Source: Kiloniellaceae bacterium (GTDB lineage Bacteria > Pseudomonadota > Alphaproteobacteria > Kiloniellales > J153). Taken from it: a stretch of 48,903 bases of DNA. Position 1 is the stretch's first letter. Every line of letters starts with the position of its first letter. The position numbers and the translations under genes were made by a program. The notes below the pieces were generated by a model. That model made no database searches and was not told the DNA's origin. It saw only the letters and a list, made by a program, of their open reading frames with translations. Shown in pieces: positions 10,186 to 12,758 of the stretch. The DNA is taken from NCBI GenBank assembly GCA_021776055.1, contig JAJFGP010000011.1, forward strand, positions 1-48,903, written 5' to 3'.

Positions 10186-10542
10186 TCAGGCCAGAGCTGC
10201 TTCCGCCTGGTGACAAATCTGCTCCAGGGTAAAGGGCTTCAAGACGATGTCGAAAACGATTTCGTCGAGGTTATGGGCCCGCTGCTGTTCAGCTGTATAG
10301 CCGGTCATCAAGAGAATCCGCAGACTCGGATGATCTCTCGCAACCTTCAAAGCCAGGCCGATACCATCCAACTCGGGCATGACGATGTCGGTGATCAATA
10401 GATCGTAGTTGGTGCCACCCAGGGCCTCTAGGGCCTGCAAGCCGTCATCGACCGGGGTAACGGTATGCCCGGCATGCGTCAAAGCGCGGGTAACAAAGCT
10501 TTGCACCGCCGGGTCGTCCTCGGCGACGAGTATTCGTGCCAT
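10186..10542 (-). CDS. cpdR: Single-domain response regulator, CpdR-like
   Basis: Receiver-only protein; MARILVAEDDPAVQSFVTRAL...DLLITDIVMPELDGIGLAL...ARDHPSLRILLMTGYTAEQQRAHNLDEIVFDIVLKPFTL. Confidence 0.82.
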   Translation of the reverse strand: MARILVAEDDPAVQSFVTRALTHAGHTVTPVDDGLQALEALGGTNYDLLITDIVMPELDGIGLALKVARDHPSLRILLMTGYTAEQQRAHNLDEIVFDIVLKPFTLEQICHQAEAALA

Positions 10543-10606
10543 TGCTTTATGTATCTCCTCGTGCGGCAGGCGTTGTCGCCCACCCGCGATGGTGTGCGCA
10601 GGGTAC

Positions 10607-10622
10607 TTAACGCCCGGTTAAC
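10607..10622. promoter_or_regulatory. Candidate CtrA box upstream of cpdR
   Basis: TTAA-CGCCCGG-TTAAC, exact TTAA-N7-TTAAC. Confidence 0.65.
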
Positions 10623-10725
10623 GCAGGGCCAGCCAACACCCCAAGTAATAAATGTATTTCAGAGAAAATCTAATGTAATCAAGGAAATTACCAATAATTT
10701 TATCTTAATTTTACTTACTCTATTA

Positions 10726-10753
10726 TTGACATATTCTTAAGTCATGTTAAACT
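10726..10753 (+). promoter_or_regulatory. Candidate sigma70-type promoter for the DUF2336 gene
   Basis: TTGACA-N16-TAAACT in an AT-rich stretch about 50 bp before the ATG. Confidence 0.45.
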
Positions 10754-10761
10754 CTCATTAA
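10746..10761 (-). promoter_or_regulatory. Candidate CtrA box upstream of the DUF2336 gene, overlapping the -10
   Basis: Plus strand GTTAAACTCTCATTAA; minus strand TTAA-TGAGAGT-TTAAC. Confidence 0.6.
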
Positions 10762-10800
10762 GCTTCACCGATCTTTGCCAATAAACGAGAGCGCATCATC

Positions 10801-12030
10801 ATGGCCGTCAGCAAGGAAACGCCGCCGCACCTGTCGCACGCCAGCGTCGCGCGTTTGCGCCGCGATCCTTCGCGCAGTGCCCGGGCGGAGACGGCGGCTG
10901 GGGTGGCTGCCGTCTTCGCCCGTGGCGGCCTAACCGATCAAGAGCGGCGCTATGCGATCGAGATCATCGAACATTTTGCCGGCGACGTGGAACGCCAGGT
11001 GCGCGAGGCTCTGTGCGAGCACGTTAAGCACTGCCCGTTCCTGCCGAACGGTATTGCCATGACTTTGGCCCGCGATGTGGAGTCCGTCGCGTTGCCGATC
11101 ATCCGCTATTCCGAGGTTCTGACCGACGACGATCTTATCACTATCGTGCGGGAAGAAAGCACGGCCAAGCAGTTCACGATCGCCGGCCGCGCGCAGGTCA
11201 GCACGCCCGTCGCCGATGCTCTGGTCGATACCCGTAAAAAGAACGTGGTCGGCGCGCTGCTTGGCAACAAGAGCGCAGACATCGGCGAGGCCGCCTACGT
11301 TAAGGTCGCCAGCGATTTTGCCGAAGACCATGATATTCACACCTTACTTGTCGGCAGACCGACACTGCCGGCGAGTGTGTCCGCGCGTCTCATCACCTGT
11401 GTATCGGATGTTCTGCGTGAGCGGTTGGTCGAACGTCATGGGTTTCCGCAGGTTCTCGCCGACGAAATCGCCATGCACGGGCGCGACCGCGCCGTCTCCG
11501 AGACCGTCACGCCGGATACATCACGCGACGAGGTGGAGCGCCTGCTTGACGCCCTACGCGCGACCCATGGCCTCAGCCCGACGTTCCTTCTGCGGGCGTT
11601 GAGCAAGGGTGATCTCGCCTTCTTCGAATCCAGCCTCTCGACCATCGCTCGTCTGCCGCAAGATAACGTCGCTCAGTTGATTCGCGACCGAGGTTCGCGC
11701 GGGTTTCAATCTCTCTACGCCCGCGCCGGGCTGCCCCCACAACTCTTCGCGGCCTTCCGCACGGCCATGGATGTGGTCCTCGATGTGCGCGCGGAGCGGC
11801 CGCACGGATGGACGGACGAGGACACCAAGCGCATCGTCAGCGGCCTGGTGCGAAGCTACGATGATGTCTGCCCGGAAAACATCGAGAACGTCTTGGGCCG
11901 CCTTGCCCGGCGTGCCGCCACGCCCGTGCTCACCGCGAATCGGACCGGCACCAATCCGACTGGCGCCTACAATCGGCGGCGGGACGATCTGCCGGCCATC
12001 GAGATGGCGGCTGCGCCCCTCCTCGCGTAA
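10801..12030 (+). CDS. DUF2336 domain-containing protein
   Basis: 409 aa; helical repeat content and LVDTRKKNVVGALLGNKSADIGEAAY characteristic of alphaproteobacterial DUF2336. Confidence 0.7.
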   Translation: MAVSKETPPHLSHASVARLRRDPSRSARAETAAGVAAVFARGGLTDQERRYAIEIIEHFAGDVERQVREALCEHVKHCPFLPNGIAMTLARDVESVALPIIRYSEVLTDDDLITIVREESTAKQFTIAGRAQVSTPVADALVDTRKKNVVGALLGNKSADIGEAAYVKVASDFAEDHDIHTLLVGRPTLPASVSARLITCVSDVLRERLVERHGFPQVLADEIAMHGRDRAVSETVTPDTSRDEVERLLDALRATHGLSPTFLLRALSKGDLAFFESSLSTIARLPQDNVAQLIRDRGSRGFQSLYARAGLPPQLFAAFRTAMDVVLDVRAERPHGWTDEDTKRIVSGLVRSYDDVCPENIENVLGRLARRAATPVLTANRTGTNPTGAYNRRRDDLPAIEMAAAPLLA

Positions 12031-12062: not shown

Positions 12063-12758
12063 TCACGGCGTGATCACGAAATCGATTAGGATACGGCCTT
12101 CCCGCGGTGGGTTTTTGGCCGTCGTCTCGAAATTCGTCGTGCCACCGGGCGGCAGGGTCGTCGCGGACGCCGCAAAGGTCCAGTTCTCGACCTCGTCTCC
12201 CTTTGAATCGATGATGCTGGCACGCAATAGCGGTACGGATTGCGGTTCGCTGGTTACGTTGGAGACCAGCCCCTCGACAGCCACAACCTGCTCACCATCA
12301 ACGAGGCGGCGGGCCGTTTTCACATCGCGAAGTTCCAGCGGCACGCCCACCGGTGGAGGTGCTAGCCCCGCCATCTGATAGAGCGGTGCCGCCGCGGGCA
12401 CCAGCGCCAGCACCTGCTCCCGCCCGAAATAGAGACCGGCGGCCAAGCCGCCAATGACGGCCAGGAACAGGAGCCAGCCAAGAATCAGTGACGAGCGGCC
12501 GCTGCTGGCCTCCTTATGGCGCGGCGGCTTGGGGCCGCGCCGACGGGCCCGCTTCTCCGGTATTTCCGGCGGTTCGGGCACGGCCGACTCTTGAGCAGCC
12601 TCGGGTGGCGACTCGGCGACGACCGGCGCGGCTTCGTTTTCCGCACCTTGGTGCCAGTTATGACCACAGCTGCCGCAGCGCACCTGGCGCCCGCTAGGGC
12701 CAAGTTGCTCAGTTTCGACAACAAACGTGGTCGCACATGATGGACAGGTCAGGTTCAT
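12063..12758 (-). CDS. MJ0042 zinc-ribbon / DUF3426 protein
   Basis: N-terminal MNLTCPSCATTFVVETEQLGPSGRQVRCGSCGHNW, TM helix, C-terminal DUF3426-like region; upstream of ftsE. Confidence 0.85.
   Translation of the reverse strand: MNLTCPSCATTFVVETEQLGPSGRQVRCGSCGHNWHQGAENEAAPVVAESPPEAAQESAVPEPPEIPEKRARRRGPKPPRHKEASSGRSSLILGWLLFLAVIGGLAAGLYFGREQVLALVPAAAPLYQMAGLAPPPVGVPLELRDVKTARRLVDGEQVVAVEGLVSNVTSEPQSVPLLRASIIDSKGDEVENWTFAASATTLPPGGTTNFETTAKNPPREGRILIDFVITP

Follow-up and report, generated by a model that had tools for sequence, protein, structure and literature searches.

The 258-bp region between cpdR and a divergent gene for a DUF2336 protein in an uncultured Kiloniellaceae alphaproteobacterium (positions 10543-10800 of the window, i.e. 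the whole 48,903-base stretch of DNA analysed) raises the question of whether CtrA governs both genes and, if so, with which sign. TTAA-N7-TTAAC is the full-site consensus of CtrA, and two exact copies (box 1 and box 2; Table 1) lie in this region. The initial annotation had taken them to mean that CtrA feeds back on cpdR and drives the DUF2336 gene. The reading that we favour from sequence comparison, with a probability of about 60 %, is that box 1 activates cpdR and that box 2 is not an activating site for the DUF2336 gene.

Both 16-mers were recovered at the positions first reported for them, and the reported upstream distances were right to within about 1 base: 64 bp separate box 1 from the ATG of cpdR (10542, - strand) and 39 bp separate box 2 from the ATG of the DUF2336 gene (10801). 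The coordinates of the TTGACA-N16-TAAACT promoter overlapping box 2 were likewise confirmed. The third TTAA is present, but its gap to box 2 is 5 bp rather than the 6 bp originally given; the stretch that it opens (10737-10752) is itself a full site with 1 mismatch. Boxes 1 and 2 are the sole exact TTAA-N7-TTAAC sequences in the whole window, and a scan of the window at spacings of 3-12 returned a single further match, at N9.

Table 1. Features of the cpdR/DUF2336 locus (window coordinates)
Feature	Position	Strand or orientation	Evidence or remark
cpdR, 118-aa single-domain response regulator	10186..10542	-	PF00072 81.6 bits; NCBIfam CpdR best match
Predicted cpdR -10, CACCAT	10589..10594	-	11 nt downstream of box 1
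Box 1, exact CtrA-type full site, TTAACGCCCGGTTAAC	10607..10622	quasi-palindromic, oriented to cpdR	pattern match
DUF2336 -35, TTGACA	10726..10731	+	TTGAC kept in 7/7 syntenic genomes
Third TTAA half-site	10737..10740		within the DUF2336 -35/-10 spacer; 5 bp ahead of box 2
Box 2, exact CtrA-type full site, TTAATGAGAGTTTAAC	10746..10761	-	pattern match
DUF2336 -10, TAAACT	10748..10753	+	16-bp spacer after the -35; inside box 2
DUF2336 protein, 409 aa, divergent SpbR paralogue	10801..12030	+	PF10098 211 bits; NCBIfam SpbR 340.8 bits
ZitP-like protein: zinc_ribbon_5 (residues 1-35), TM and DUF3426	12063..12758	-	ZitP architecture (PMC5182063)

Dinucleotide-preserving shuffles of the 258-bp region gave a probability of 0.007 for at least one box and of at most 1e-4 for at least two. 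When the region was shuffled by part, the GC-rich part with box 1 returned P=1e-4 and the AT-rich part with box 2 P=0.0075; box 1 is less expected by chance than box 2. Across the 3.72-Mb genome, TTAA-N7-TTAAC gave 35 matches at 28 places, against 6 matches for the reversed pattern and 4 matches, at 3 places, for the N6 spacing. The N7 count is far above both controls, so spacing matters and AT content fails to explain the count. Of the 28 places, 27 fall between predicted genes. The N7 pattern also exceeds the reversed-pattern control in Kiloniellaceae relatives; in genus g8, however, that control was not below the true pattern, so the reversal measure is not universal and we preferred the spacing control for this reason. 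A -10-like NANNNT stands 10-11 nt after the box at 21/28 boxes of this genome, whereas other offset pairs mostly gave 3-8, with 16 and 11 for the overlapping pairs and 10 for one other.

Contig C122 of the genome encodes a CtrA that is 70 % identical to its Caulobacter counterpart across residues 1-224. The RcdA (DUF1465), ChpT (HPTransfase) and PopZ (DUF2497) families and ClpX are encoded as well. Pfam domains found downstream of boxes include ClpX, FtsZ, MotA, TadE, Tad, bactofilin, lytic transglycosylase, GGDEF and those of response-regulator/HDOD proteins, and we class these genes as a predicted CtrA-like regulon. Another regulator with a similar motif might bind the TTAA pairs instead, as the genome encodes other OmpR-type regulators (28-37 % identity to CtrA). 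We regard this as highly unlikely given that one gene only reaches orthologue-level identity to CtrA, that the box geometry is that of CtrA promoters and that the targets fit CtrA-type functions (cpdR and a tandem SpbR pair, besides clpX and the FtsZ-family, MotA-family, TadE/Tad, bactofilin and GGDEF genes). The exact box at clpX lies 170 bp upstream (contig C64 segment, 1501-1516) and is without the usual -10 offset; CtrA control of the ClpX protease itself is a possibility. No box within 1 mismatch was found upstream of rcdA in this genome, and ctrA has a single 1-mismatch site only.

The cpdR product scores 105.6 bits on the NCBIfam CpdR model, below a cut-off of 180 that is tuned to Brucella, and is ~60-85 % identical to order-wide orthologues. 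On its short single receiver domain, its best match and these orthologues, we assign it as a CpdR orthologue. Box 1 is retained with it: in 7 syntenic family genomes, a box with at most 1 mismatch lies ~50-90 bp before cpdR while the spacer bases have changed. Comparison of orthologous upstream regions bears this out more widely, with a box of at most 1 mismatch in 33/35 and an exact one in 23/35 (12/22 dereplicated). Exact boxes at other spacings before the same 35 genes numbered 6 for N6, 4 for N8 and 0 for the rest tested. The box also precedes cpdR where cpdR does not adjoin a DUF2336 gene, and NANNNT stands at offset 10-11 after 16 of the 19 dereplicated cpdR boxes. In the window, the 5' base of box 1 lies at ~-39 relative to the predicted cpdR start (~10582), and the CtrA box of the activated ctrA P2 promoter of Caulobacter is at -39 (PMC4287350). 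Taken together, the conservation of box 1, a -10 at the activating offset and the -39 geometry lead us to read cpdR as CtrA-activated, and box 1 is very probably a CtrA site with that effect. The proposed feedback of CtrA on cpdR thus stands: CtrA is present, the box is kept in and out of synteny, and its geometry is that of activation.

Phosphorylated CtrA would be recruited by box 1 to a CtrA-class promoter (-10 CACCAT) and would activate cpdR. In Caulobacter, CpdR primes ClpXP to degrade CtrA, and the same step here would close a delayed negative feedback. The sequences with their conservation, spacing specificity and geometry, and the presence of CtrA and its partners, are what we observe; binding, regulatory sign, feedback and phase we infer. 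Known systems differ on this link: CtrA activates cpdR in Caulobacter, while in Sinorhizobium meliloti its binding to the cpdR1 promoter had no effect that could be measured (PMC4433202), and cpdR, rcdA, popA and clpXP are not regulated by CtrA in Hyphomonas (PMC7200025). A 2010 survey reported CpdR as absent from Magnetospirillum and Rhodospirillum (PMC2877005). The locus resembles the Caulobacter loop in which CtrA acts on cpdR (with rcdA, clpP, sciP and divK; PMC4433202) in its activator-geometry box and its CtrA-antagonising product. It differs in that the Kiloniellaceae cpdR has an SpbR paralogue as its divergent neighbour, that rcdA has no such box and that the sites are predicted. As CtrA control of cpdR is already known in Caulobacter, the present case is a further member of a known loop.

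The DUF2336 protein had been described as of unknown function, an account to be amended in that it has a known relative, the Caulobacter pole protein SpbR, of which it is a divergent paralogue. SpbR enters the open literature searched through PMC12700997 only, which cites Wang & Bowman 2019 on proteolytic degradation and pole development; DUF2336 and COG5330 were not mentioned in that literature. Compared with the Caulobacter SpbR of that citation, the window protein belongs to the same DUF2336 family and matches the SpbR equivalog profile (NF052659) over its full length, but its score (341 bits) falls under the cut-off of 400. On contig C73, two genes in tandem fit better (471 and 474) and are likely the SpbR equivalents of this genome. 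In a tree, the clade of the window DUF2336 protein (15 rows, SH-aLRT 100) is split from the SpbR-like rows. We treat it, on profile score, as an SpbR-like paralogue rather than SpbR proper. Its structural model is all-helical (pLDDT 81), and a Foldseek search with it returned no PDB match at E<=0.001. Weak sequence matches of the protein to TAL repeats were discounted as repeat-like noise.

Each C73 gene has its own exact, correctly phased box, and the distances to the predicted ORF starts are 54 and 61 bp. These boxes lie at 1996-2011 and 3291-3306 of C73:17000-24000 and differ in spacer sequence. Among 40 further DUF2336 genes of the order and class, drawn from the match list mostly by rank after a few boxes had been noticed and including related species, 31 are preceded by an exact N7 box, in most cases at a distance of 85-135 bp; over the remaining spacings between 3 and 12, the same upstream regions gave 1 box in all, at N6. 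NANNNT follows at offset 10-11 in 24/26 SpbR boxes. Caulobacterales-like loci have a 1-mismatch N7 site in 30/37 cases, against at most 13 at other spacings, and the first DUF2336 set, dereplicated at 70 % identity, gave 12/54 at N7 against 0-1 elsewhere. Neighbouring genes of DUF2336 loci also show some excess of exact N7 boxes (15/146); only at 1 mismatch do DUF2336 upstream regions separate from those of neighbours (66 % vs. 37 %). This neighbour comparison is not clean, and we take the spacing control as the better one. SpbR-type DUF2336 thus looks like a core CtrA target, predicted from its upstream boxes, and the open literature searched apparently contains no description of it as such.

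Box 2 is placed differently from these boxes. The DUF2336 gene has a predicted sigma70-type promoter, both elements of which (-35 and -10) can be made out in 7/7 syntenic genomes, and box 2 spans the -10 and the predicted start (~10760), from ~-13 to +2, with no NANNNT -10 at offset 10-11 and hence without the activating geometry. CtrA sites located in the -10 region are repressive in Caulobacter, as at ctrA P1 and P3 (PMC4287350; PMC6180460); the predicted place of the 5' base of box 2 (~-13) is like that of P3 (-14; PMC4287350), the target here being a DUF2336 gene. Among the 7 syntenic genomes, this place holds an exact N7 box in 2, TTAA-N6-TTAAC in 3, a 1-mismatch TTTA-N7-TTAAC in one and no site in one (G004). 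The exact form is limited to the two members of the genus, in which 9/9 half-site bases are kept; the 5' leader around box 2 is equally conserved, so this conservation is not site-specific.

On this evidence, the suggestion that CtrA drives the DUF2336 gene through box 2 is not supported: the box covers the sigma70 -10 and start, lacks an activating -10 and is inexact beyond the genus. Activation of both genes, one from each box, could draw on the presence of an exact box on either side, on the activating boxes that precede most SpbR-type DUF2336 genes and on five relatives with TTAA-N7-TTGAC over the -35 of this gene. It is nevertheless improbable in view of the position of box 2 and of the window clade outside Caulobacterales, in which exact N7 boxes are no commoner upstream of DUF2336 genes than N6 or N8 (2, 3 and 2 of 26, respectively). 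The -35 pair was seen in the five other syntenic genomes, and in the genus of the window it has decayed to TTAC/TTAT-N7-TTGAC (window 10715-10730, +); in those five relatives it might point to a site of activation.

The alternative of a non-functional box 2 has to be taken seriously, although on balance we think it rather unlikely that box 1 alone is functional and that box 2 arose incidentally, from an AT-rich -10 followed by a chance TTAA. In its favour, most of the left TTAA comes from TAAACT, the chance of a box in the AT-rich part would rise above the shuffled value once the -10 is given, exact N7 is not retained beyond the genus, and G004 has no site there. Set against this are the exact box in both genus members with its half-sites intact and the persistence, at the same place, of the N6 form in three same-family genomes and of TTTA-N7-TTAAC in one; in some species, sites with N6 spacing are functional (PMC6180460). 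We consider it fairly probable that box 2 is a CtrA site and, provided that it is one, likely that its effect is repression, which we prefer over activation owing to its place on the -10 and start, the missing activating -10 and the confinement of exact N7 to the genus.

With repression at box 2, the intergenic region would be a two-way CtrA-controlled switch for cpdR and the DUF2336 gene. CtrA on box 2 would repress the latter, and the SpbR paralogue would be produced in the absence of CtrA, in a phase opposite to that of cpdR and of the two true SpbR genes of the genome. The Caulobacter flgB/fliO pair (PMC6180460) is comparable in that both are divergent pairs under CtrA with opposite sign (predicted here); flgB/fliO, however, share one CtrA site, whereas the two boxes here are separate, 123 bp apart.

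The gene order DUF4175 - cpdR (-) / DUF2336 (+) - zitP-like (-) - ftsE (+) recurs in the syntenic genomes to the extent that their contigs cover it. The zitP-like gene adjoins the DUF2336 gene upstream of ftsE/ftsX, an order kept in Kiloniellaceae. Caulobacter ZitP and CpdR both bind PopZ (PMC5182063, PMC11519897), and by analogy this cluster may bring together clients of the pole hub. The named relatives that share the gene pair comprise Kiloniellaceae metagenome assemblies and one 'Alphaproteobacteria bacterium'. In two genomes of the same family (G002 and G005), we found no close cpdR (best matches ~40 %) and no linked DUF2336 gene; the locus was either lost as a whole or falls into gaps of these assemblies.

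The broadest version of these proposals, which we put forward tentatively and consider doubtful as a whole, is that SpbR-type DUF2336 genes form a core, unlisted part of the CtrA regulon across Alphaproteobacteria, that the Kiloniellaceae paralogue adjoining cpdR is CtrA-repressed so that the paralogues would have opposite phases, and that cpdR, the SpbR-like gene and the zitP-like gene would make up a likely PopZ-client cluster. At the level of the locus, the CtrA-CpdR negative feedback would extend to Kiloniellales and relatives. DUF2336 gains a regulatory identity, in that an activating CtrA-type box stands before most of the SpbR-type members examined, and these genes are predicted cell-cycle outputs. 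This conserved CtrA-box family of SpbR-type DUF2336 genes would be a wider and more interesting point than the cpdR loop itself.
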